Source: Streptomonospora nanhaiensis
Lineage (GTDB): Bacteria > Actinomycetota > Actinomycetes > Streptosporangiales > Streptosporangiaceae
Reading direction: 5' to 3'
Length of the DNA: 64,000 bases
Assembly (NCBI RefSeq): GCF_013410565.1
Contig: NZ_JACCFO010000001.1
Location: 1,426,001-1,490,000, forward strand
Below, in pieces: positions 42,778 through 54,280 of this stretch (the stretch's first letter is position 1; the number at the start of each line of letters is the position of its first letter). The position numbers were made by a program, and so were the translations under genes. The notes beneath the pieces were generated by a model, which ran no database searches, was not told the origin of the DNA, and was given only the letters and a program-made list of their open reading frames with translations.

Positions 42778-44907
42778 TCAGGAGGGGGTCTCCTGGTCGG
42801 CGGCCGGCGCCTCGGGTGCCGGGCGCTCGGCCCGCGCCGGGCCCTCCTGCGCGCGGGCCCGCCGGTCCAGCTCCTGCAGGTAGGCGTTGTAGGCGTCCAT
42901 GTCCGCGTCGTCGGAGCCGCCCCGGCGGCTGTGCCGCTCGCGGCGGCGCTCCCGGCGCTCCTCGTCGCCCGCCCACTGCCGCAGCAGGGCGAGCATGACC
43001 AGCAGGGTGGGGATCTCGCCGATCGCCCAGGCGACCCCGCCGCCGGCGTACTGGTCCTCGCCCACGCTGTCGGCCCACGGGACGTCGAACTGCCCGTAGT
43101 AGGACATGGCCAGCGGCTCGGTCTGCATCATGATCGTGATGCCGAAGAACGCGTGCACGCCCATGGCCAGCAGCAGGAGCAGGATCCGCAGCAGGTGGTG
43201 CAGGCGGCGCGGACCGGGGTCGACGCCGACGATGGTCCAGTAGTAGAGGTAGCCGCTGAGCAGGAAGTGCACGTTCATGAAGACGTGCCCGCTGTGGTCG
43301 CTCATCAGCATGCCGAACAGCGGCGTGAAGTACAGCACGTAGGGGCTGAACACGAACAGCGGGGTGGCCACGCCCGGGTGGGTGACCACCTTGGAGAAGC
43401 GGCTGTTGAGGAAGGCGTTGAGCCACTCGCGCGGACCGCGGTCGCCGCGGCGGCGGGCCGGGCGCAGCGCGCGCAGCGCCAGGGTCACGGGGGCGCCCAG
43501 CACCAGCAGGACCGGCGCCATCATCGACAGCAGCATGTGCTGCACCATGTGCGTGCTGAACAGCACCATCGAGTAGGTGGCCACGCCGCTGAGCAGCACA
43601 GCGGTCATCAGCAGCAGCCCCGCCAGCCACGCCACCAGGCGGCCCGCGGGCCAGCTGTCGCCGCGGCGGCGCAGCCGCACCACCCCGGCGATGTAGAGGC
43701 CGCCCATGACGGCCACCAGCACGGCGAAGAACAGGTCGGGGCGCCACAGGGTGAGCAGGGTCTGGGCGCTGATGGGCGGCGGCATGGGGAAGCCCAGCAC
43801 CGACTCCGCCGGGGTGGGCACCCCGCCGTCGTCGGGCGGCGGCGGGGTGCGGCTGAGCGCGGCGCCCAGCGCCATGGCGGCCGCCATCACCACGATCTCG
43901 ACCCCGGCCAGGCGGGCGAACAGCCGCCGCCCGGCGGTCTCGGTGATGCGCGGGACCGTGGCGCGCCGGTGCACGTAGCCCACGGCGCCCAGGACGGCGA
44001 ACAGCGCGATCTTGACCAGGATCAGCAGGCCGTAGGAGGTGGTGAACAGCTGCGCGGGCTCGTACAGGCGGCTGACGGCGCTGGCCACCCCGCCCACGGC
44101 CACGCCGGCGTAGGCCCACAGCGCCATCCGGCTGAAGCGCTCGGCGGCCACGGGGGCGTCCTGGGCCCCGGCGCGCAGCCCGTGGAAGGTGACGGCGGCC
44201 AGCCCGCCCACCCACACGGCGATGGCCAGGACGTGCAGGGCCAGTCCGGCGACGGCGAGTTCGTGGGCGCCGGCCGAGGCGGAGTGGCCGGTGAGGACCG
44301 GCGGAACCATGCCGGCGGCGGCCAGGACCACCAGGACGGCGGCGGAGGAGGCCGACTCCGCGGTACGGCAGAACAGCGCCAGCGCGGTGGCCGCCAGGAT
44401 CATCAGCAGCAGGCTGATGCCCTGGGAGACCGACACGGCGTAGCTGGTGAGCTGGTTGCCCATGACCTCCTGGGGCGGCAGCCCGGAGATGTCGGAGAGC
44501 TGGAAGACCAGGGTGGCGGCGGCCGCGGCGGCCCAGCACAGCGCCGCCCAGGAGGCGGCGCGCACGTAGCCCAGGGCCTGGGCGCCCAGGGGGCGCGCCC
44601 CGCTCTTGTCCTCGGGCGCGGGCAGCGGCAGCAGGAAGACGGCGAGCACCAGCAGGCCCAGGGTGAGGGCGGAGGCGAGGTCGCGCGCCATGGTCGAGAC
44701 CGGCAGGCCCCATCGGGTGAGGGGGCCGGAGTCGGGCAGGCCGGGGATCACCTCGGCCGTGACCGCTCCCCCGGTGACCAGGGCGATGATCAGCGAGATG
44801 GCGCCACCGGCGATCGCGGCGACGCCGATGGTGACCGCGGTGTCGGCACCCGGGGCGGTGCCGCCGGGGGGCGCCGGGGTGGTGTCGCGGACTCCGGAGG
44901 AACTCAC
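42778..44907 (-). CDS. CopD–CtaG fusion membrane protein
   Basis: The 709-residue product joins two membrane modules. The N-terminal part (about 20–370) is CopD-like, with eight or so helices and the GLALHVLAIAVWVGGLAAVT copper-transport motif. The C-terminal part (about 385–650) is a caa3-type CtaG: FSTHMVQHMLLSMMAPVLLV, NVHFLLSGYLYYWTIVGVDP and MGVHAFFGITIM carry the conserved His residues. A charged cytoplasmic tail follows. It is thought to import or deliver copper for cytochrome c oxidase. The fusion is common in actinomycetes. GTG 44907 has GGAG upstream. A small membrane ORF and an operator-like site lie just upstream. Confidence 0.94.
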   Translation of the reverse strand: MSSSGVRDTTPAPPGGTAPGADTAVTIGVAAIAGGAISLIIALVTGGAVTAEVIPGLPDSGPLTRWGLPVSTMARDLASALTLGLLVLAVFLLPLPAPEDKSGARPLGAQALGYVRAASWAALCWAAAAAATLVFQLSDISGLPPQEVMGNQLTSYAVSVSQGISLLLMILAATALALFCRTAESASSAAVLVVLAAAGMVPPVLTGHSASAGAHELAVAGLALHVLAIAVWVGGLAAVTFHGLRAGAQDAPVAAERFSRMALWAYAGVAVGGVASAVSRLYEPAQLFTTSYGLLILVKIALFAVLGAVGYVHRRATVPRITETAGRRLFARLAGVEIVVMAAAMALGAALSRTPPPPDDGGVPTPAESVLGFPMPPPISAQTLLTLWRPDLFFAVLVAVMGGLYIAGVVRLRRRGDSWPAGRLVAWLAGLLLMTAVLLSGVATYSMVLFSTHMVQHMLLSMMAPVLLVLGAPVTLALRALRPARRRGDRGPREWLNAFLNSRFSKVVTHPGVATPLFVFSPYVLYFTPLFGMLMSDHSGHVFMNVHFLLSGYLYYWTIVGVDPGPRRLHHLLRILLLLLAMGVHAFFGITIMMQTEPLAMSYYGQFDVPWADSVGEDQYAGGGVAWAIGEIPTLLVMLALLRQWAGDEERRERRRERHSRRGGSDDADMDAYNAYLQELDRRARAQEGPARAERPAPEAPAADQETPS

Positions 44908-45817: not shown

Positions 45818-47107
45818 ATGCCCCATATCGACACCGTGATCCGCTCGCGCCGCGTGGTCACGCCCGAAGGGGTGGCTCCTGCGGCGGTCGCCGTGCGCGC
45901 GGGCCGCATCACCACCGTCACGGCCTACGACCGCCCCCTGCCGGCCCGCACCCAGGTCGACCTCGGTGAGGTCGCGCTGCTGCCGGGCGCGATCGACCTG
46001 GACGCCGCCGTGCAGGCACCCGGCCGCACGCTGCGCGAGGGCTACACCGAGACCTCAGCCGCCGCCGCGCGGGCCGGTGTCACCACTGTCGTCGCCGCCG
46101 CCGCCCCCGCGTCCCCCCCGGTCACCGACGTCGCCGCGCTCACCGTCCACCTGGCCGCCGCCGCCGAGTCCGCCGTCAACGTCGCCTTCCTCGGCGGCAT
46201 CACCGCCTCCAGCACGCCCGCCGACCTCGCCGACCTGCGCGCCGCCGGAGTGGTGGCCTTCCACTGCTCCCTGTCCGACGGCGCCGGAGCCGGCACCCGC
46301 CCGCTCGACGACCACCGGCTGCGCAAGGCCATGGTGGAACTGGCCGCCATGGAGGTCCCGCTGCTGGTGCACGCCGAGGACGCCGCCGAACTGGCCCCGC
46401 CCGCCGGGCCGGGCAACGTCGCCCTGCTGGCGGCCCGCCCGCCGCGCGCCGAGCGGCGCGGCCTGGAGCGGGTGATCTCCGCGGCCCGCATGGCCGGCAC
46501 CCGCGCCCACATCTCCCCCTTCACCGCCGCCGAGTGCGCGGCGGTGCTGGCCGGCGCGCGCGCGATCGGGGTCGCGGTCAGCGCCCAGACCTGCCCGCAC
46601 TACCTGTGCCTGCCCGCCGAGCAGGTGCCCGACGACTCCGCGTCCCACGCCTGCCACCCGCCGCTGCGGGCCGGCACCAACCGCGAGGCCCTGTGGCGGG
46701 TGCTGCTGGAGCGCGGCGACTGCGCCATCACCAGCGTGGGCTCGGGCCACCGGCCCGGCACCGGGGTCTCGGGCATCTCCTGGACCCTTCCGGCGCTGTG
46801 GACCGCGGCCCGCCGCCGGGGCTGCGACCTCGCCGACATCGCCCGCTGGACCGCCACGGCGGCGGCCGACCTGGTGGGGATGCGGCACCGGGGCCGCCTG
46901 GCGCCCGACTGCGACGCCGACCTCGTCGCCTTCGACCCCGACGCCCGGCAGGCGGTGCCGCCGGACGACCCCGGCCCCTACGCGGGCCGCACCCTCACCG
47001 GGCGGGTGGAGCGCACCTGGGTCGCCGGGCGCCCGGTGTACGTCCGCGCCGGCGCGGCCGGCGGCCGGCGCCCCGCCGCCGAGGACTCCCCCGTCGCCGC
47101 GCCGTGA
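45818..47107 (+). CDS. Dihydroorotase/allantoinase-like protein lacking the metal site (probable pseudoenzyme)
   Basis: The 429 residues have the cyclic amidohydrolase fold throughout: LPGAIDLDAAVQAPGRTLRE, the GVTT strand, LLVHAEDA, QTCPHYL, PPLR..NREALW, GRLAPDCDADLVAFDPDARQ. Yet nearly every metal ligand is replaced. Asp62 and Ala64 stand where HxH is expected. His149 replaces the carboxylated Lys (FKCF to FHCS). Pro234 replaces the next His. The DHSP Asp is gone (SVGSGHRP). Only His185 is retained. Hydrolysis is therefore unlikely, and a structural or regulatory role is inferred. ATG 45818 has AAGGGG upstream. Alanine dehydrogenase follows 138 bases on. Confidence 0.9.
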   Translation: MPHIDTVIRSRRVVTPEGVAPAAVAVRAGRITTVTAYDRPLPARTQVDLGEVALLPGAIDLDAAVQAPGRTLREGYTETSAAAARAGVTTVVAAAAPASPPVTDVAALTVHLAAAAESAVNVAFLGGITASSTPADLADLRAAGVVAFHCSLSDGAGAGTRPLDDHRLRKAMVELAAMEVPLLVHAEDAAELAPPAGPGNVALLAARPPRAERRGLERVISAARMAGTRAHISPFTAAECAAVLAGARAIGVAVSAQTCPHYLCLPAEQVPDDSASHACHPPLRAGTNREALWRVLLERGDCAITSVGSGHRPGTGVSGISWTLPALWTAARRRGCDLADIARWTATAAADLVGMRHRGRLAPDCDADLVAFDPDARQAVPPDDPGPYAGRTLTGRVERTWVAGRPVYVRAGAAGGRRPAAEDSPVAAP

Positions 47108-47245
47108 CCGCGGGCCCCTGCCCCGGCCCGCCCGGATTACACCATGTCAACAAGACGTGAAATCGGCAGTCATGTTGGAGATGGCCGCCCCGGGGCGGGC
47201 ACGTCACAGTGAAGAGGTGTCAATGACGATACGAGGAGGAGCCCC

Positions 47246-48364
47246 GTGCGCGTCGGCGTGCCCCGAGAAGTGAAGAACCACGAATACCGGGTTGCCATCA
47301 CCCCCGCCGGAGTCCACGAAATGGTCACCCGCGGCCATTCGGTCGCCGTGGAGCGCGGCGCGGGCCTGGGCTCCTCGATCACCGACGAGGAGTTCGCCGC
47401 CGCCGGCGCCCGCATCCTCGACACCGCCGACGACGTCTGGGCCGAGGGCGACCTCGTCCTGAAGGTCAAGGAGCCGGTGGCCGAGGAGTACCACCGCATG
47501 CGCCGCGGCCAGACGCTGTTCACCTACCTGCACCTGGCCGCCTCCGAGGAGTGCACGCGGGCGCTGCTGGACCGCGGCGTCACCGGGATCGCCTACGAGA
47601 CCGTGCAGCTGCCCGACGGCTCGCTGCCGCTGCTGGCCCCGATGTCGGAGGTCGCCGGCCGGCTCGCCCCCCAGGTGGGCGCGGCCACCCTCCAGCGGCC
47701 CAACGGCGGCCGCGGCGTGCTGATGGGCGGCGTGCCCGGGGTCAGCCCGGCGCGCGTGACCGTGATCGGCGCGGGGGTCTCGGGCCTCAACGCCACCCGG
47801 ATCGCGGTGGGCATGGGCGCCGACGTCACCCTGCTGGACCTCAACGTCGCCAAGCTGCGCCACGCCGACGACCTCTACCAGGGGCGCGTGCGGACCGTGG
47901 TGTCCAACGCGCTGGAGCTGGAGCGCGCCGTCCTGGACGCCGATCTGGTGATCGGCGCGGTGCTGGTGCCCGGCGCCAAGGCGCCCAAGCTGGTGTCCAA
48001 CGAACTGGTCTCGCGCATGCGGCCGGGCGCGGTGCTGGTGGACATCGCCATCGACCAGGGCGGCTGCTTCGCCGACTCCCGCCCCACCACCCACGCCGAC
48101 CCCGTGTTCTCGGTGCACGACACCGTCTTTTACTGCGTGGCCAACATGCCGGGCGCCGTGCCCAACACCTCCACCCGCGCCCTCACCAAGGACACCCTGC
48201 GCTACGTGGTGGAACTGGCCGGCAAGGGCTGGCGGCGGGCCCTGGCCGACGACCCGGCGCTGGCGCTGGGCCTCAACACCTTCGACGGCGTGCTGACCAA
48301 CGAGGCCGTCGCCCAGGCGCACGGCCTGAAGTCCACGGCGCTCGCCGAGGTCCTGGCGGGCTGA
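47246..48364 (+). CDS. ald: Alanine dehydrogenase
   Basis: It reversibly deaminates L-alanine to pyruvate with NAD+. The 372 residues have the catalytic Lys in LVLKVKEPV (about 74) and His in FTYLHLAAS (about 95). They also have the family MSEVAGRLAPQVGA and a Rossmann motif VTVIGAGVSGLNA (about 171–183). VFYCVANMPGAVPNTST near the C-terminus is diagnostic. The GTG start at 47246 follows GAGGAGGA (47233–47240). A 16-codon open frame from ATG 47223 overlaps the start and could couple translation. It may consume alanine released by the peptidases elsewhere in the window. A strong hairpin follows. Confidence 0.96.
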   Translation: MRVGVPREVKNHEYRVAITPAGVHEMVTRGHSVAVERGAGLGSSITDEEFAAAGARILDTADDVWAEGDLVLKVKEPVAEEYHRMRRGQTLFTYLHLAASEECTRALLDRGVTGIAYETVQLPDGSLPLLAPMSEVAGRLAPQVGAATLQRPNGGRGVLMGGVPGVSPARVTVIGAGVSGLNATRIAVGMGADVTLLDLNVAKLRHADDLYQGRVRTVVSNALELERAVLDADLVIGAVLVPGAKAPKLVSNELVSRMRPGAVLVDIAIDQGGCFADSRPTTHADPVFSVHDTVFYCVANMPGAVPNTSTRALTKDTLRYVVELAGKGWRRALADDPALALGLNTFDGVLTNEAVAQAHGLKSTALAEVLAG

Positions 48365-48372
48365 GCCCGCGA

Positions 48373-48420
48373 CGCGGACGGCGCGGCCCGGCGCGGAGGG
48401 GTTGGGCCGCGCCGTCTGCG
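48373..48420 (+). terminator. Strong hairpin terminator after ald
   Basis: Arms 48373–48389 and 48404–48420 pair over 17 positions with a single G-U and a 14-base loop, directly after the ald stop. Confidence 0.7.
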
Positions 48421-48483
48421 GTAGCGTCTCCCCACGACCGGTGGTGTCCGACCGTTTGGACACCGGGCGGCGAGGAGGCGGCC

Positions 48484-49125
48484 ATGGCGGATCGCGAGTT
48501 GTGGACGGGCCGGCCGCCCGGGTCCAACCCCTTCGCCCTGCCCCGGGGGCCGCTGGGCCGTGCCGCGGGCTGGGTGCTGGCCTTCACCAACCGCGCGCAG
48601 AACGCCGAGGTGCTGCGCGCCTGCCGCGTGGCCGGGTGCCGGCGGGTCCTGGAGGTCGGCCACGGTCCCGGTGTCCTGGTGCGCATGCTCGCCGAGGTCC
48701 CCGGCGTGAACGTGACCGGTGTCGACCCCTCCCCCGAGATGGTCGCCATGGCGCGGCGGCGCAACGCCGCCGGGGTGCGGGCGGGCCGGGTGCGGCTGCA
48801 CCGGGGCACCGCCGCCGACACCGGCGAGCCCGACGCGGCGTTCGACCTGGTGCTGTCGGTGAACACCGTGGCCATGTGGCCCTACCTCGACCCCGGGATG
48901 GCGGAGTTCCACCGGGTCCTGCGCCCCGGCGGCCGGGCGGTGGTCACCTGGCACCGGTTCCCCGAGAGCTTCCGGCTGTCAGCCGCGCAGTTCGCGCTGG
49001 TCGAGGAGGCCATGGCCAAGCGGTTCGGAGCGGCCGAGCGGCGGCTGCTGCCGGGGTCGGTGGTCTTCGAGGCGGTCAAGGAGCCGGAGCCGGGCGGCGG
49101 CGCGCGGGCGGCTCAGGGGGCGTAG
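48484..49125 (+). CDS. Class I SAM-dependent methyltransferase
   Basis: The 213-residue product has the Rossmann SAM motif RRVLEVGHGPGVLVRML (about 55–71), the acidic VTGVDPSPEMVAMARRR, and AFDLVLSVNTVAMWPYLDPG with the following HRVLRPGGRAVVTWHRF. These are the Methyltransf_11 pattern. It is soluble and the substrate is unknown. ATG 48484 follows GAGGAGG. Its last 13 bases overlap the end of the convergent secreted-protein gene, so the two transcripts run into each other. Confidence 0.92.
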   Translation: MADRELWTGRPPGSNPFALPRGPLGRAAGWVLAFTNRAQNAEVLRACRVAGCRRVLEVGHGPGVLVRMLAEVPGVNVTGVDPSPEMVAMARRRNAAGVRAGRVRLHRGTAADTGEPDAAFDLVLSVNTVAMWPYLDPGMAEFHRVLRPGGRAVVTWHRFPESFRLSAAQFALVEEAMAKRFGAAERRLLPGSVVFEAVKEPEPGGGARAAQGA

Positions 49126-49412
49126 ACGGCGGCGCCCCGCACCGCGGGGTCGGCCTCGCCCGGCAGCAGCACCGCGGTGACCTCGCCGGTGCAGTCGGGT
49201 TCGGCCAGCACGAACACGGTCTGGTCGGTGCGGTTGTCCACGGCGGCCGGTGCGGCCTCCAGCGGCAGGCAGCCGCGGGGGTCGGTGTGCTCGGCGCCGT
49301 TGACGGCCAGGACGCCCGTGGCGGCGTGGGCCGGGGCGGCGCCGGCGGCCAGGACCGCGGCCGCCGCGAGGCAGCCGAGGGCCCGGGCCGCGCGGGCGGG
49401 ACGAGGGCGCAT
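49113..49412 (-). CDS. Small secreted protein
   Basis: The 99 residues start with a clear signal peptide: MRPRPARAARALG, then a hydrophobic CLAAAAVLAAGAAPAHA with an AxA cleavage site near 30. The mature part (about 70 residues) has one Cys pair (GCLPLE and PDCTGE) that could form a disulphide, and no recognisable domain. ATG 49412 has GGAG upstream. It is divergent from the enolase-like gene and overlaps the convergent methyltransferase end by 13 bases. Confidence 0.82.
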   Translation of the reverse strand: MRPRPARAARALGCLAAAAVLAAGAAPAHAATGVLAVNGAEHTDPRGCLPLEAAPAAVDNRTDQTVFVLAEPDCTGEVTAVLLPGEADPAVRGAAVYAP

Positions 49413-49704
49413 GGGACGCTCCTTGCGTATTGGCGGATGCACACTGCGTAGTCGCAGGTGAAACACTATCCAGACGCGCGCCGGCCCGCCACCGCTTCGG
49501 TCCGCGCGAACCGCGACGCCCGGCCGCACGACCCGCGCGGCGCGCACCGGCGTGGCGCGGAGCGCGGGAGACGTTCGCCGCACCCCGCGTGGCGGCACCG
49601 GTGGACTATTCGCGCGGTGCGGATAGTTTCGAGAGGGCGGGGCGCCCGCGGGCGCCGCGGGGCCGCCCCGCCCATCCACTCCCGCGCATCGAGACGGAGC
49701 ACGC

Positions 49705-50832
49705 GTGTCACGCACCGAACCGGCCATCCTCACCCGCGTCGCGGGAGTCGACGCCACCCTGGTCCGGCTGCCGCTGGCCCACCGCTCGCGCGGCGCGGTC
49801 CAGACCCGCCAGGAGTTCTCCCGGCACGCGCTGGTACGCGTCGTCGACGAGCGGGGCCGCACCGGCTGGGGCGAGGTCCCCCAGGCCGACCCCGAGCGGT
49901 GGCGGGCCCTGGTCGAGGACTACGCGCCCGCGCTGCTGGGCCACTCCTGGCACCGCCCCACCGAGACCGAGGCCGCCTGGGCCGGGCTGGCCTGGCAGCC
50001 GGCGGTGGCCGCCGCGCTCGACACCGCCTGCTGGGACCTGTGGAGCCGGCGGCGCGGCACGCCCCTGTCCCACGCGCTGGGCGGCGACCGCACGGCCTTC
50101 ACCGCCGGCACGACCGTCCGCCGCCAGCCCTCCGAGGAGTCCCTGGTGCGCGAGGTCAACCGCCAGGTGGGCGCCGGGTTCCGCCGGGTGCGCCTGGAGA
50201 TCGGCCCCGGCTGGGACATCGACGTGGTGCGCACCGTGCAGGAGAGCTTCCCGTTCCTGGTGCTGCAGGCCGACGCCGGGGGCCGCTACACCGAGGACCC
50301 CGCCCACCTGCGGGCGCTGCGGGCGCTGGACGACTACGGGCTGGCCGCCATCGAGGAGCCGTTCGGCGGCGGCGACCTCGCGGCCCACGCGCGGCTGCGC
50401 CGCGACCTGCGCACGCCGGTCGCGCTGAGCACGACGGTGGACTCGCTGGAGACCCTGGACCGCGCCATCGCGATGGAGGCGGCCGGCGCGCTGAGCCTGC
50501 GCCCGGCGCGCCTGGGCGGCCTCACCCCGGCGCGGCGCGCCCACGACCGCGCCGTCGACGCCGGCTGGGCGGTGTGGTGCGGCGCCGACGCGGAGTCGGG
50601 CCTGGGCAGCGCCGCGATCGCGGCGCTGGCGTCGCTGCCGGGGGTGACCCTCCCCAGCGAGATGCCGGGCGCGGGCGGCCGGTTCGCCCGCGACACCGTC
50701 CGCCCGTCGGTCCGCGCCCACGAGGGCATCACCCCCATCCCGCTCACCCGCCCCGGGCTGGGCTACGAGATCGACTGGAAGCAGCTGCGCGGCCTGACCG
50801 TGGAGTCGGTCGTGCTCGGCCCGGCCGGCTGA
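49705..50832 (+). CDS. Enolase-superfamily protein of the OSBS/NSAAR type lacking catalytic residues (probable pseudoenzyme)
   Basis: The 375 residues align throughout with o-succinylbenzoate synthase/N-acylamino acid racemase: GWGEVPQAD, the PGWDIDVVR strand, YGLAAIEEPF, and AVWCGADAESGLGSAAIAAL. The chemistry residues are replaced, however. The KxK of the second strand is Arg163-Leu-Glu165. The opposite Lys is Arg266 (SLRPARLGG for NIKPGRVGG). The CLDES motif is ALSTT, so the third metal ligand (Asp) is Ser242. Asp190 and Glu217 remain. Neither racemisation nor dehydration is expected, and a binding role is inferred. GTG 49705 has GGAG upstream. It is convergent with the 2OG-oxygenase-like gene. 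Confidence 0.88.
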   Translation: MSRTEPAILTRVAGVDATLVRLPLAHRSRGAVQTRQEFSRHALVRVVDERGRTGWGEVPQADPERWRALVEDYAPALLGHSWHRPTETEAAWAGLAWQPAVAAALDTACWDLWSRRRGTPLSHALGGDRTAFTAGTTVRRQPSEESLVREVNRQVGAGFRRVRLEIGPGWDIDVVRTVQESFPFLVLQADAGGRYTEDPAHLRALRALDDYGLAAIEEPFGGGDLAAHARLRRDLRTPVALSTTVDSLETLDRAIAMEAAGALSLRPARLGGLTPARRAHDRAVDAGWAVWCGADAESGLGSAAIAALASLPGVTLPSEMPGAGGRFARDTVRPSVRAHEGITPIPLTRPGLGYEIDWKQLRGLTVESVVLGPAG

Positions 50833-50886
50833 CCGGCGACCGCGGGCCGCGGGCCGCGAGGGCGGTGCCCCGGCGGACCGGCCGGC

Positions 50887-51888
50887 TCAGCCCTCGCGCG
50901 GGTCCCGGCCGCCGCGGGCTCCGGTGATCAGCCGCTGCCACCGGCCGCCGAGCTTGACCGCCATGTGGCGGGCCACGGTGACCGGCTCGTAGTAGTCGGG
51001 CCGGTCAGGGCCGACGCAGGTGGGCAGGGTGGTGACCAGCGCGTCGAAGTCGGCGCCGTGCGACAGGGCCGCCGCCCGCCAGCGCTGCCCGGTCCGCCCG
51101 GCCGGCGCCGGCGGGCGGACCGCGCGGAAGGGCGGCGCGAGCCAGCGGTCGTTGGTCCAGCGGGCCAGCAGGTCGCCCACGTGCACCACCAGGGCGTCGG
51201 GCCAGGGGGCGACCTCGCGCCACCGGCCGAGGTCGTCGGCGAACTGCAGCGGTGCGCCCTCCGCCCACACCACCCGCAGCAGCCCCGGCTCGGTGTACCC
51301 GGCGGCCTCCTCGCCGGAGGCCGCCGCCGGCGCGGTGCCGGCCGGCGCGGGCGGGCGGTGCTCCAGGCGGAGCACGTCGATGGAGTGGCCGGTGTAGGGC
51401 TCGAAGAACCCCTCGGGCACGTCCAGCGCCACGGCGAAGACGCGGGTGAGCCGCCGGGCCAGCCGCTGGGCGGCGTCGAACCAGGCCATCACCTGCGGCT
51501 GGAACTTCGGCAGGCCCACGGGCCAGATGTTGGCGGGGTAGATGTCCACCGGCAGCGCGCGGTCGGGGAAGTCCCGCGCCTGAGTGCCGATGCGGAAGGT
51601 CTCGGCCGCGCCCGGGGCCGCCGGGGCGCGGTACCCGCGCTCGGAGTCGGGCTCGGGCGGCGCGTAGCGCAGCTTGCCCGCCGCCGGGCGGTCGAAGAAC
51701 AGGTCGATCGCCTCGCGCACGCCGTCGTGGATCTGTCCGGGGATCCCATGTCCGACGACGCGCATGAACCCGGGGTCGGCTGCGGCCGCGCCCACGCGCG
51801 CGGCGATGCGCGCCTGGGCGTGCGGCCCGGAGTCCCAGCCCGAAATGTCGATGAGGGGCACCTCAACAGCGGTGGTCGACTCGCCCAT
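50887..51888 (-). CDS. Isopenicillin-N-synthase-like 2OG/Fe(II) oxygenase fold lacking iron ligands (probable pseudoenzyme)
   Basis: The 333 residues have the IPNS-family layout: N-terminal VPLIDISGWDSG, GFMRVVGHGIP, YTGHSIDVLRLEHRPP, VHVGDLLARWTNDRW and the C-terminal LPTCVGPDRPDYYEPVTVA. The double-stranded beta-helix has lost its iron triad. The HxD motif is Tyr198-Thr-Glu200, and the distal His is Phe254 (APPFRAV for STPHRVV). Of the RxS co-substrate motif only Arg269 remains (RWR). Dioxygenase activity is thus unlikely. ATG 51888 is preceded by GGAGGAC. Its 3' end faces the enolase-like gene 54 bases away. Confidence 0.9.
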   Translation of the reverse strand: MGESTTAVEVPLIDISGWDSGPHAQARIAARVGAAAADPGFMRVVGHGIPGQIHDGVREAIDLFFDRPAAGKLRYAPPEPDSERGYRAPAAPGAAETFRIGTQARDFPDRALPVDIYPANIWPVGLPKFQPQVMAWFDAAQRLARRLTRVFAVALDVPEGFFEPYTGHSIDVLRLEHRPPAPAGTAPAAASGEEAAGYTEPGLLRVVWAEGAPLQFADDLGRWREVAPWPDALVVHVGDLLARWTNDRWLAPPFRAVRPPAPAGRTGQRWRAAALSHGADFDALVTTLPTCVGPDRPDYYEPVTVARHMAVKLGGRWQRLITGARGGRDPREG

Positions 51889-52530
51889 GCGTCCTCCGTA
51901 GGTGGTCGGGCGGCCCGGACGGGGCCGGAGCGGCTCGTGCGCGCGCACCATCGGCGATGCGGCGGCGCTGCGGACGGGGCACGTCCCGGCCGCGCGCCGC
52001 GTCCGGTCAAGGGCGGCGGGCGCGGGGGTGCCGGCGGGTCCGGGCGGCCCGGTGCCCGCGGGGTGCCGCGACGCCGCCCGGGCGGCTTGGGGCCGATCGG
52101 AGGCGCGGCGGAGGCCCGGGAGGGGGCCGGCGGGGTCGAGGACGGCGCCAGGGCCGCGCCCCCGGTGCGGCGGGGGCGGAGGCGGTGCGGCGCAGGGAGT
52201 GGGGTGCCGGGGAGAGCGGCGGTCCCGCCTGGGGGGTTCGCGGCGTGGCGTGCGCATCACAGACTCCCGTCGGATGGCCGGGTCAGTGGGAGCCGGTCGC
52301 CGGTTCCGCAGGGGGTGACGGCGGGGCGATCAGCCGTGACTCTAGGCAGACCGTGTTGCCACGGGATCAACCCGCGATACACGGCCGTTAATCGGCGGTA
52401 GTTGGGCCACTACGGTGCGCGGCGCGCCCGGGCGAGCGTTGGCCGATACTCTACGCCGCCGTTGGATTACTTTGGGTTGCCATCCCGTTTCCGGTCTGTT
52501 TCGGCTGCGCGCTCTCGGAGGTATCCCGCC
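51889..52530. other. Intergenic region upstream of the phosphodiester glycosidase
   Basis: About 640 bases without a supported gene. The left 370 bases are extremely GC-rich, with purine-rich runs on the plus strand. The right part is more mixed (GTTAATCGG, GTTGGATTACTTTGGG) and probably holds the promoter of the exported glycosidase. I could not pick out a clear -35/-10 pair. Confidence 0.35.
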
Positions 52531-53640
52531 GTGTCCCGCCGTGCCGCCGCAGCGGCGCTCGCCCTCACCGTGTTCGTCCTGCTCACCGGCGCCGCCCCGG
52601 CCGCCCGCGCGGCCGAGCGGGCCGAGCCCGTCGCCCCCGGGGTGCACCTCTCCACCGCGTCCGTCCCCGCCGGCGACGGCACGCAGTACTTCACCACGCT
52701 GCGCGTCGACCTCACCGCGGGCGCCGAGGTGGACTACGTCGACCCCGGCAGCGTCGCCGCCCGGGCGCTCCTGCGCGAGATGGCCTCCGGGCCGGACGCC
52801 GTCGCCGCCGTCAACGGCGACTTCTTCGACTCGGGCGCCTCCTACGCGCCGCTGGGCGCGGCGGTGCGCGACGGCACCGTGCTGAAGTCGCCCTCGGGGG
52901 ACGACCGCGCCGTCGCCGTCGTCGACTCCGCGGGGCGCGGCCGCGTGGCCACCGCCGCCTTCACCGGCGCCGTCGGCCTCCCCGGCGGCGACCTCGCCGT
53001 CGACCGCCTCAACAGCCACGAGGTCCCCGCCGACGGCACCGGCGTGTTCACCGCCGACTGGGGCGACCACCCGCGCGAGCGGGCCGCGCCCAGCGGGCCG
53101 GTCACCGAGGTCGCGGTGGCCGGGGGGCGCGTGGCCGGCGTCACCTCGGGCGCCGGAGCGGGCGCGGTCGCCCCCGGCACCCGGGTGCTGCTGGGCCGCG
53201 GCGCGGCCGCCGACCGCCTCGCCTCGCTGCGGCGCGGCGACCCGGTCGCGCTGGACTACCGGCTCGCCGCCGGCGGCGGCCGGCCCCGCCTGGCGATCGG
53301 CGGGCGGCACGTGCTGCTGCGCGACGGCGCCTTCACCGGCGCCACCGACAACGCCCGCCACCCGCGCACCGCCATCGGGTTCTCCGCCGACGGTTCGCGG
53401 ATGGTCGTCGTGACCGCCGACGGCCGCGTGCCGGGCGCCACCGGCGCCTCACTGGGCGACATGGCCGAGCGGATGCTGCTGGCCGGCGCCCACGACGCGC
53501 TGGAGCTGGACGGCGGCGGATCGGCCACCCTGCTCACGCGCGACCCGGCGACCGGCGAGCTGGTGCGGCACAACCGCACCGGCGAAGACGAGCGCGCCAT
53601 CCCCAACGGCCTGGTGGTGCGCGCCGCGTCCGGCGGCTGA
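52531..53640 (+). CDS. Exported phosphodiester glycosidase (NAGPA domain)
   Basis: The 369 residues begin with a signal peptide: VSRRAAAAALALTVFVLLTG, cleaved near ARAAE (about 28–30). The NAGPA-type domain follows with its hallmarks VAAVNGDFFDSG (about 88–99), ARHPRTAIGFSADG and HDALELDGGGSATLL. Relatives hydrolyse phosphodiester-linked sugars. Bacterial ones are thought to act on cell-wall or extracellular glycans. GTG 52531 has GGAGG (52517–52521) at 9 bases. The longer open frame upstream (from 52402) lacks a sensible start. It stands as a single transcription unit. Confidence 0.92.
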   Translation: MSRRAAAAALALTVFVLLTGAAPAARAAERAEPVAPGVHLSTASVPAGDGTQYFTTLRVDLTAGAEVDYVDPGSVAARALLREMASGPDAVAAVNGDFFDSGASYAPLGAAVRDGTVLKSPSGDDRAVAVVDSAGRGRVATAAFTGAVGLPGGDLAVDRLNSHEVPADGTGVFTADWGDHPRERAAPSGPVTEVAVAGGRVAGVTSGAGAGAVAPGTRVLLGRGAAADRLASLRRGDPVALDYRLAAGGGRPRLAIGGRHVLLRDGAFTGATDNARHPRTAIGFSADGSRMVVVTADGRVPGATGASLGDMAERMLLAGAHDALELDGGGSATLLTRDPATGELVRHNRTGEDERAIPNGLVVRAASGG

Positions 53641-53824: not shown

Positions 53825-54280
53825 ATGCGGATTTTCACCGACCTCGCCGAGCTGGTCGCCGCCAAGGGCGAGCACCTGGGCTACAGCGACTGGCTGACCG
53901 TCACCCAGGACCGGATCGACCGGTTCGCCGACGCCACCGACGACCACCAGTGGATCCACGTCGACCGGGAGCGCGCCGCCAACGGCCCCTTCGGCGGCAC
54001 CATCGCGCACGGCTTCCTCACGCTGTCGCTGCTGTCCGCGTTCAGCCCGCAGGTGTGGACGCTGCGGCAGCGGCCCTCCATGGCCATCAACTACGGCCTC
54101 AACCGCGTGCGGTTCCTCCAGCCCGTGCGCACCGGTTCCCGGGTGCGCGACGGCATCGAACTGATCGACACCCGCGAGACCAAGAACGGCCTGCTTTTGA
54201 CCTTCGGGCACACCGTGGAGATCGAGGGCGAGGAGCGCGCCGCGCTCGTCGCCGAGGGCCTCAGCCTGATGGTGCCCTAG
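53825..54280 (+). CDS. MaoC-like (R)-hydratase/dehydratase
   Basis: The 151-residue hot-dog-fold protein has the hydratase-2 motif with catalytic Asp and His in FADATDDHQWIHVDRERA (about 38–55). GGTIAHGFLTLSLLS, conserved in the (R)-specific enoyl-CoA hydratase group, follows. The product size is that of the stand-alone enzyme, which adds water to trans-2-enoyl thioesters. ATG 53825 has AAGGAG 10 bases upstream. A TAGAGT hexamer near 53778 may be its -10. It is convergent with the glycosyltransferase operon across a hairpin. Confidence 0.93.
   Translation: MRIFTDLAELVAAKGEHLGYSDWLTVTQDRIDRFADATDDHQWIHVDRERAANGPFGGTIAHGFLTLSLLSAFSPQVWTLRQRPSMAINYGLNRVRFLQPVRTGSRVRDGIELIDTRETKNGLLLTFGHTVEIEGEERAALVAEGLSLMVP

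Follow-up and report, generated by a model that had tools for sequence, protein, structure and literature searches.

Neighbouring allantoinase-like and OSBS/NSAAR-like proteins without catalytic residues are conserved across most of an actinomycete family

Introduction

Three genes within about 6 kb of the Streptomonospora nanhaiensis genome raise the question of whether enzymes of unrelated folds have become non-enzymes at a single locus, and whether they now work together. A preliminary description of the window (the whole stretch of 64,000 nucleotides analysed here) read them as a dihydroorotase or allantoinase, an enolase-superfamily protein and an isopenicillin-N-synthase-like oxygenase, here called AMI, ENO and 2OG. 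It held that each was full length, not decaying and devoid of nearly all catalytic residues, and suggested that the three may form one substrate-binding or sensing system, chance clustering being allowed for. Our analysis partly supports this interpretation. The papers listed in a literature search included no description of the AMI, ENO or 2OG proteins. Two apparently dead, unrelated enzyme folds side by side across most of an actinomycete family would make a clean case of repurposing from enzyme to non-enzyme, for which the intact allantoinase paralogue in each of ten compared genomes serves as a control on the AMI side. The resemblance of AMI and ENO to allantoinase and o-succinylbenzoate synthase may also cause them to be annotated as enzymes, misleading metabolic models.

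Results

Gene content of the locus

The genes of the locus, with positions in the window, are:

42,778–44,907, reverse strand: CtaG/CopD membrane protein (PF09678, E 3.8e-89; PF05425, E 1.1e-19), the conserved divergent upstream neighbour
45,818–47,107, forward strand: AMI, 429 aa, putative pseudo-allantoinase of amidohydrolase fold
47,246–48,364, forward strand: ALD, apparently intact alanine dehydrogenase (TIGR00518, 561.5 bits, above cut-off)
48,484–49,125, forward strand: class I SAM methyltransferase (Methyltransf_25, E 2.9e-20)
49,113–49,412, reverse strand: lineage-specific small protein whose start resembles a signal peptide by eye, with no Pfam match
49,705–50,832, forward strand: ENO, 375 aa, putative pseudo-OSBS/NSAAR of enolase superfamily fold (MR_MLE_C, E 3.7e-35)
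50,887–51,888, reverse strand: 2OG, 333 aa, degenerate isopenicillin-N-synthase-like 2OG/Fe(II) oxygenase (DIOX_N, E 1.1e-14)
52,531–53,640, forward strand: secreted NAGPA-domain protein (PF09992, E 5.6e-32), start uncertain, the reading frame opening at 52,402
53,825–54,280, forward strand: MaoC-like hydratase (PF01575, E 3.1e-26), the next conserved member of the block

The coordinates of AMI, ENO and 2OG given in the preliminary description are right: all three reading frames are free of internal stops, and all three have lost catalytic motifs. Four residues that we take to be catalytic in ALD (R15, K75, H96 and D270) are all present in the window copy. Several of the intervening genes are patchy: with genes in relatives called by our own codon-score caller, whose starts may be wrong, homologues of the methyltransferase were called in 10 of 53 related loci and of the NAGPA-domain protein in 6 of 53, i.e. 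in some relatives only, and the small protein has homologues only in G080/L128, G107/L130 and G060. Intergenic gaps in the block are wide (medians 111–304 bases), so co-transcription is not established. A search for structured RNA between 42,000 and 55,000 gave a single match, below the threshold of its own family, and a domain search found no fused regulator or DNA-binding domain in the window proteins. AMI, ENO and 2OG matched none of the PADLOC defence models, and an anti-phage defence system was therefore rejected; the match of the window methyltransferase to mads_2 (E 2.6e-17) probably reflects generic methyltransferase similarity.

AMI lacks the allantoinase metal site

Throughout, the metal and catalytic roles of positions in AMI, ENO and 2OG follow background knowledge of the enzyme families, and their fixation in active relatives was computed here. 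The binuclear metal site of allantoinase presumably consists of HxH, a carboxylated Lys, two further His and an Asp. When AMI was aligned to E. coli allantoinase 3e74 and 25 intact relatives, positions 62 and 64 (HxH), 149 (Lys), 234 (third metal His) and 310 (Asp) were found to be D, A, H, P and G, leaving His185 as the sole metal-site residue. The same five of six residues are lost in 58/58 aligned AMI orthologues, a count from which L175 and L180 had been dropped, to which L142 and L179 yielded no AMI call, and from which G060 was kept apart; all six are kept in 25/25 active relatives, a chosen subset of the matches. With one of six metal-site residues and a best NCBIfam match, to TIGR03178 allantoinase, of 288 bits (below the cut-off of 357.85), AMI would not be classed as a functional allantoinase. 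This match and the residue alignment nevertheless make AMI, by sequence, an allantoinase derivative, which narrows the earlier assignment by removing dihydroorotase from it. Foldseek assigned an allantoinase fold to the AMI model (mean pLDDT 86), and among the 50 matches listed the closest solved structures were bacterial allantoinases, at 25–26% identity.

After the Asp position, AMI is 13–16 residues shorter than the aligned intact relatives. Its pocket side retains the invariant or nearly invariant residues H185, E187, D188, H261, Y262, C264, S309, G310 and H311, and the replaced stretch around S309–H311 is nearly fixed. Cys264 is present in 58/58 degenerate rows and in G060, as against 1/25 active rows. 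A pattern scan of viral contigs for the GSGHRPGTG stretch returned 14 loci, although the pattern is degenerate and these may be due to chance.

A prozyme-like role for AMI, paired with an active allantoinase of its own cell, is unsupported in the genus of the window: the sole other AMI match in the window genome is only 28% identical, and allantoicase is absent from 4/4 genomes of the genus searched. Second AMI matches in G030, G080 and G107, the other three of these four genomes, were likewise absent among the matches listed, which end near E 1e-19. Such pairing is possible in genomes having both proteins, such as G045, G054 and G007, which carry AMI and an active allantoinase.

ENO lacks most of the OSBS/NSAAR active site

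We take the OSBS/NSAAR site to comprise KxK, a second catalytic Lys and three Mg-binding acids. In the window ENO, KxK (163/165) has become R/E, the third acid (242) S and the second Lys (266) R, with the two metal acids D190 and E217 still present; lacking KxK, the second Lys and the third Mg acid, it would not pass as a functional OSBS/NSAAR. The earlier statement that nearly all catalytic residues had gone is confirmed, with the qualification that two metal acids survive in the window ENO and one His (His185) in AMI. KxK is kept in 0/60 Nocardiopsaceae rows having a residue there and the second Lys in 0/61 (L175 was dropped before counting and L142 gave no ENO call), while both are intact in 11/11 active relatives, again a chosen subset. 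D190 is replaced in 11/61 rows and D242 in 51/60 rows having a residue there; positions 165, 242, 243 and 266 vary widely, and R163 (60/60) and E217 (61/61) are fixed. These two, like the invariant pocket-side residues of AMI, leave room for a bound ligand or for a new reaction.

Within the enolase superfamily, ENO belongs by descent to the OSBS/NSAAR branch. Its closest NCBIfam family is TIGR01928 (166.7 bits, below the cut-off of 200.65), and the best Foldseek matches of its model (mean pLDDT 89.6) are N-acylamino acid racemases. Folds are thus kept in both AMI and ENO, in agreement with the preliminary description. Other genera of the family likewise carry degenerate relatives of ENO (16/16 inspected), in loci that hold neither AMI nor ALD within the 11–20 kb viewed and that share no gene cluster across all 16 besides ENO itself. 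Beyond the family, no degenerate ENO was found among the 12 best matches fetched, all of them intact (12/12). A further idea, that a futalosine menaquinone route had made OSBS dispensable, is unsupported, PF02621 being found in 0/12 genomes (controls matched 4/14).

AMI and ENO are kept under purifying selection

Among the 53 related loci, the order AMI, ALD, ENO occurs in 49, AMI with ENO in 51 and AMI-ALD-ENO-MaoC in 47, with CtaG on the opposite strand in 52. The AMI, ALD, ENO order is also present in the outlying genome G060, and the wider surroundings (CtaG and, further out, SbcCD) are syntenic too. ENO is kept in G063, where degenerate AMI was not found, and in G006 (L179), where AMI is frameshifted. 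G010 and G111 keep AMI and ENO as neighbours with no ALD match in the genome, which leaves ALD unsupported as an obligate partner. Frameshifts affect 3/53 loci: ENO in L153, AMI in L179, and both in L175, where ALD is split as well, indicating an assembly error there.

Median dN/dS over 26 pairs (L142, L153, L175, L179 and L180 excluded) was 0.29 for AMI, 0.26 for ENO, 0.20 for ALD, 0.25 for MaoC and 0.31 for CtaG; these Nei–Gojobori values are distorted by codon bias at high G+C, and only the comparison with neighbours counts. On that comparison, AMI and ENO are under purifying selection, with values like those of their neighbours, and dozens of columns are invariant in the 26- and 27-row alignments. 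Losses in 58/58 AMI rows and 60/60 ENO KxK rows, with dN/dS well below 1, are more than chance, and recent damage or sequencing error was rejected for both proteins since the losses recur across the family. A lost motif, a kept fold and purifying selection are here combined in AMI and ENO, as expected of pseudoenzymes recognised from sequence; for 2OG the motif is lost and dN/dS is 0.22 in one pair.

In trees, the 58 degenerate AMI rows and G060 were split from the 25 active rows (100/99), and 71 degenerate ENO rows from the 11 active ones (100/99). The alignments show that the metal-chemistry residues of allantoinase and OSBS/NSAAR have gone throughout each group in proteins of full length.

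Constraint has moved from active-site mouths to barrel helices

Relative to active relatives, the catalytic-face loops of AMI changed by +0.40 bits and its helices by −0.16 (p = 6e-5), and those of ENO by +0.49 and −0.33 (p = 6e-7; L214 and G060 excluded from the ENO entropy comparison), with loop and helix boundaries set by us from the secondary structure of the models and with small active sets (25 and 11 rows) of unequal depth. The sign of the contrast held in 200/200 row draws for each protein, and the AMI contrast was 0.39 within the same ten genomes. As controls, two active AMI groups differed by −0.06 and two degenerate AMI groups by 0.02; a comparison of two active ENO groups gave −0.32, so contrasts between groups can be sizeable, though here of opposite sign. 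Tightening of helices was not universal: AMI helix 1 is strongly relaxed, and helix 4 shows no tightening when the same genomes are compared. The most variable ENO elements were the 20s loop (2.17 bits) and the third-acid loop (1.90). As judged from these alignments, both proteins have lost constraint at the mouths of the old active sites and gained it in particular barrel helices. Conserved helices span residues 209–226 and 238–249 of AMI and 99–118 and 273–288 of ENO. Some conserved helices may merely serve homo-oligomer packing or folding.

The 2OG gene is a patchy neighbour

The sites of 2OG/Fe(II) oxygenases are presumably the HxD...H iron triad and the RxS 2OG site. In the window copy the triad positions hold Y198, E200 and F254 and the RxS Ser has been replaced by Ala, and this copy would not be classed as a functional member. 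2OG adjoins ENO in 6/53 related loci and in the window; HxD...H is retained in 2 of these 7 copies and broken in 5, and in relatives located elsewhere it is intact in 16/16. The losses among ENO-adjoining copies look independent, and 2OG appears to be a lineage-specific, later and separate arrival whose iron site was lost several times.

The expectation that orthologues carry the same losses was thus borne out for AMI and ENO and contradicted for 2OG, where the two intact copies are the outcome that the preliminary description had itself named as refuting. Its further claims divide in the same way. Genes that are not decaying, and a non-neutral dN/dS, were found for AMI and ENO; a conserved neighbourhood holds for AMI, ALD and ENO and fails for 2OG. 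A single system of three is not supported, given the patchiness of 2OG, the loci in other genera where ENO stands without AMI or ALD, the retention of ENO without an intact AMI in G063 and G006, and that of AMI and ENO without an ALD match in G010 and G111.

Discussion

Catalytic residues long lost from genes that most family members keep suggest that AMI and ENO probably do a new, non-enzymatic job. We propose, with about even confidence, that both are ancient, vertically inherited pseudoenzymes, not decaying, that now act through protein contacts. Each would have lost its site in a single event on the stem of its own group, a reading that hinges on roots placed among active rows and in which G060 is a long branch. 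By analogy with the inactive dihydroorotase chain of Pseudomonas, they may serve as structural or regulatory subunits. AMI most likely keeps an allantoinase-like oligomer, and its partner, which a conserved charged helix (around A211–R224) may contact, would in the window genome be something other than an active allantoinase, since no such enzyme was found there. The job of ENO would be separate from that of AMI and predate AMI's recruitment, and the neighbouring 2OG would be a later insertion. Should a partner come to light, the conserved helices would point to its binding site.

The shift of constraint favours such contacts over sensing, in which AMI and ENO would exert some regulation by still binding a ureide or an N-acyl amino acid at the former active site. 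That role, close to the one first suggested, is unlikely in our judgement: several pocket-side AMI residues are invariant, the catalytic-face loops of AMI continue to vary less than its N-face loops (0.78 versus 1.29 bits), R163 and E217 are fixed in ENO and a nitrogen-metabolism enzyme, ALD, adjoins the genes, but the pocket loops have relaxed while helices tightened, the two most variable ENO elements are active-site loops, no fused regulator or DNA-binding domain was found in the window proteins, and both proteins persist where ALD is absent. The same invariant residues could instead mark new catalysis by proteins only seemingly dead, with a non-metal site of Cys264, His185 and His261 in AMI. 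Pseudoenzymes with migrated catalytic residues are described in PMC10211241, and the near-exclusive Cys264 and the nearly fixed S309–H311 stretch agree with this reading; Cys264, however, sits in a loop, its closeness to the two His is putative, and in ENO, where four former site positions vary widely, no equivalent candidate site was noticed despite the fixed R163 and E217. We regard this as distinctly improbable.

It is harder still to credit that AMI and ENO are relics of no important function, held by inertia or weak structural reasons in a stable region. The surrounding synteny out to SbcCD, the AMI not found in G063 and broken in G006/L179 and the three frameshifted loci would suit relics, yet dN/dS resembles that of working neighbours, invariant columns number in the dozens, degenerate ENO persists across a wider clade and the L175 frameshifts point to assembly error. 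A quite plausible reading, though one we would sooner doubt than accept, is that AMI and ENO are independent and together by shared ancestry, with 2OG an unrelated insertion; it is not exclusive of the others. ENO without AMI, the wide gaps and the rarity of 2OG agree with it, against which stand the gene order shared by 49/53 loci and the outlying G060, and the adjacency of AMI and ENO after ALD is lost in G010 and G111. At the opposite pole, repeated conversion of unrelated folds at this locus, the dead proteins together forming one undescribed complex, seems very unlikely; it would have begun with the old pseudo-OSBS; the common ancestor of Nocardiopsaceae and G060 would have added the pseudo-allantoinase, and 2OG would have come afterwards, losing its iron site at least three times beside ENO (5/7 broken versus 16/16 intact elsewhere).

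Among known systems, AMI is closest in family and fold to allantoinase AllB (3e74, 8hfd, 3hm7), from which it differs in the absence of five of the six metal-site residues and in the shortened stretch after the Asp position. ENO is closest in fold to OSBS/NSAAR (2zc8, 1r0m, 1sjb), with TIGR01928 as the closest NCBIfam family, but is without KxK, the third acid and the second Lys. 2OG shares the DIOX_N domain and an overall sequence match with isopenicillin-N-synthase-like 2OG/Fe(II) oxygenases, and the window copy lacks their HxD...H and the Ser of RxS. The CRMP/DPYSL proteins, animal relatives of dihydropyrimidinase, lack enzyme activity and work by contacting other proteins; AMI has the same fold, many CRMPs being among the 50 Foldseek matches listed, but it is bacterial-allantoinase-like (25–26% identity) rather than derived from dihydropyrimidinase. 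In Pseudomonas aeruginosa, an inactive dihydroorotase chain (pDHO) is described as needed for aspartate transcarbamoylase activity (PMC7053772). AMI differs from it in coming from allantoinase and not dihydroorotase, with no ATCase gene noticed in the block, and resembles it as a chain of the amidohydrolase superfamily that appears inactive by its residues and has yet been kept.

Catalytic residues of AMI and ENO

The genes concerned lie in a genome of 6.28 Mb at these positions of the window:

45818–47107, full-length ORF, degenerate allantoinase-derived protein (AMI)
47246–48364, alanine dehydrogenase (ALD), between AMI and ENO
49705–50832, full-length ORF, degenerate OSBS/NSAAR-type enolase-superfamily protein (ENO)
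50887–51888, minus strand, full-length ORF, isopenicillin-N-synthase-like 2OG/Fe(II) oxygenase (2OG)

The preliminary description had presented AMI, ENO and 2OG as uninterrupted genes that lost nearly all catalytic residues, and all three are indeed full length. Comparison with 25 intact allantoinases confirmed the loss in AMI: positions 62, 64, 149, 234 and 310 are H, H, K, H and D in 25/25 active sequences and in 0/58 degenerate ones, while His185 is retained in 58/58 of the latter. Cys264 is present in 58/58 degenerate versus 1/25 active sequences. For ENO, set against 11 intact relatives, the loss was likewise confirmed, with a qualification. The KxK motif is retained in 0/60 Nocardiopsaceae sequences with a residue at the site, the second Lys in 0/61 and D242 in 9/61 (one gap), but E217 is kept in 61/61 and D190 in 50/61; position 163 is Arg in 60/60. 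The intervening ALD carries the residues expected of an alanine dehydrogenase. A small signal-peptide-like protein without a Pfam match (49113–49412, minus strand) was seen elsewhere only in two close relatives and in genome G060.

Distribution, gene order and selection

When named genomes were scanned with the AMI alignment, 54 loci matched, one of them distantly (Azospirillum, 26%). The 53 close relatives belong to Nocardiopsis, Streptomonospora, Thermobifida, Marinactinospora, Murinocardiopsis, Actinorugispora, Allosalinactinospora and Marinitenerispora, together with two records named to family or class level only and one titled Glycomyces fuscus, which groups within Nocardiopsis in trees. 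The closest named relative of the window is Streptomonospora mangrovi (L128; AMI identity 92%). With our own gene caller, full-length AMI (>380 aa) and ENO (>330 aa) were called in 47/53 loci. Outside these, Thermobifida fusca (L138) is full length by tblastn, the genes reach contig ends in L142 and L180, and frameshifts occur in L153 (ENO), L179 (AMI) and L175 (AMI and ENO, with ALD split too). The last is the complete genome of Nocardiopsis eucommiae, and the simultaneous breakage of AMI, ENO and ALD there suggests assembly errors.

As anticipated in the preliminary description, the neighbourhood of AMI and ENO proved to be conserved: AMI, ALD and ENO are consecutive on one strand in 49/53 loci (exceptions: L137 and L177, no ALD; L142 and L179, no AMI call), followed by a MaoC-like hydratase gene (MaoC) in 47/53 (no MaoC call in L140 and L175), with a CtaG/CopD membrane protein gene (CtaG) on the opposite strand in 52/53. 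Some loci contain inserted genes for a methyltransferase (10/53), 2OG (6/53) or a secreted NAGPA-domain protein (6/53). Since the median gaps are wide (AMI–ALD 137, ALD–ENO 304, ENO–MaoC 111), we count the block as a conserved gene order rather than a proven operon; and because the region beyond it is likewise syntenic, a shared function is only weakly supported by gene order taken by itself. A conserved small protein (L138:13533–13904, 123 aa), with a weak helix-turn-helix match under the cut-off and homologues in 13 of the genomes compared, is encoded downstream of ENO, usually directly before MaoC.

The expected departure from neutrality was likewise found, with median dN/dS values of 0.29 for AMI and 0.26 for ENO, against 0.20 for ALD, 0.25 for MaoC and 0.31 for CtaG (Nei–Gojobori, 26 non-overlapping genome pairs). 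Between the window and L128, values were 0.23 (AMI), 0.14 (ENO), 0.22 (2OG) and 0.52 (NAGPA).

Evolutionary history

The AMI tree splits, with 100/99 branch support, 25 active sequences from 58 degenerate ones plus G060, a long branch of unsure placement. In the ENO tree, 71 degenerate sequences (61 from Nocardiopsaceae, nine from other genera, and G060) stand apart from 11 active ones (100/99). ENO relatives from other genera, chosen from search matches and overlapping with the nine tree sequences, are degenerate in 16/16 cases, and their neighbourhoods (11–20 kb) contain neither AMI nor ALD. Among ENO matches outside the family, KxK and the other catalytic residues are kept in 12/12 of the best matches fetched; on this sampling, the degenerate form therefore seems confined to the family. 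Degenerate OSBS/NSAAR relatives from other genera of the family (L221–L236; L202, L203, L209–L211, L214–L217) share 42–54% identity with ENO and are found in two very dissimilar settings, one near an IMP-dehydrogenase-like gene (named by eye), the other near MoxR-like ATPase genes (by eye) and SbcCD (by BLAST).

Genome G026 (L119) has intact versions of both genes, the allantoinase followed by allantoicase and ALD and the OSBS-like gene ~11 kb away, an arrangement that looks like the ancestral state before the losses. With roots assumed among the active sequences, the trees suggest that catalysis disappeared from ENO before it disappeared from AMI. Ten Nocardiopsaceae genomes inspected (L182–L189, L191, L192) carry a second, intact allantoinase, 39–43% identical to AMI, several with allantoicase on the same contig; allantoicase was found in 0/4 genomes searched of the window's genus.

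Shift of constraint from loops to helices

Column entropy was compared between degenerate and active groups, using secondary structure from two predicted models with element boundaries drawn by us. From active to degenerate AMI, entropy rose from 0.10 to 1.31 bits in the loop after strand 1 and from 0.29 to 1.47 in helix 1, and fell from 1.26 to 0.49 in helix 5 and from 1.40 to 0.60 in helix 6. The ENO loops that follow strands 5 and 7 rose from 0.68 to 1.90 and from 0.40 to 1.38 bits, respectively, and helix 6 fell from 1.08 to 0.39. Loops differed from helices in both proteins (p = 6e-5 for AMI, 6e-7 for ENO), and the sign of the contrast was stable in 200/200 draws each (0.41 to 0.63 and 0.58 to 0.91, respectively). 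As controls, two active AMI groups gave a contrast of −0.06, two degenerate AMI groups 0.02, and two active ENO groups −0.32. Within the ten genomes holding both a degenerate and an active copy, the AMI contrast was 0.39, despite faster overall evolution of the degenerate copy (mean 0.97 vs 0.62 bits). That copy is far less conserved in helix 1 (1.25 vs 0.20) and more conserved in helices 3, 5, 6 and 7, but not in helix 4 (1.01 vs 0.96).

The 2OG gene

Loss of catalytic residues also holds for the window's 2OG, where Y/E/F replace H/D/H. The gene adjoins ENO in seven of the genomes examined (the window, L128, L129, L136, L137, L140 and L141). HxD...H survives in L136 and L140 but is broken in the other five; relatives located elsewhere (L069–L084) have it intact in 16/16. 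In L136 the Ser of RxS is replaced by Ala. L128 retains the first His of the triad but neither the Asp nor the last His, L129 has lost the first His only, and L137 and L141, sisters of the intact L140, share a first-His loss. On a small, quick tree, the simplest reading would be at least three independent losses of the iron site. At the 2OG position of Thermobifida fusca, between ENO and MaoC, there is instead a TnpB gene of the IS605 type (L138:12204–13310).

Interpretation

The single system of three clustered pseudoenzymes put forward earlier is unsupported, because the distributions of AMI, ENO and 2OG separate; a physical complex is possible where they co-occur. The best reading of AMI and ENO is that both are conserved pseudoenzymes with a putative non-catalytic role. 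Room is left for new chemistry or ligand binding, to which the invariant pocket-side residues, above all Cys264, may point in AMI, and the fixed Arg163 and Glu217 in ENO. We prefer a role in protein contacts mainly because constraint moved from loops to helices. The closest precedent seen for AMI and ENO is the inactive dihydroorotase chain of Pseudomonas ATCase (PMC7053772).
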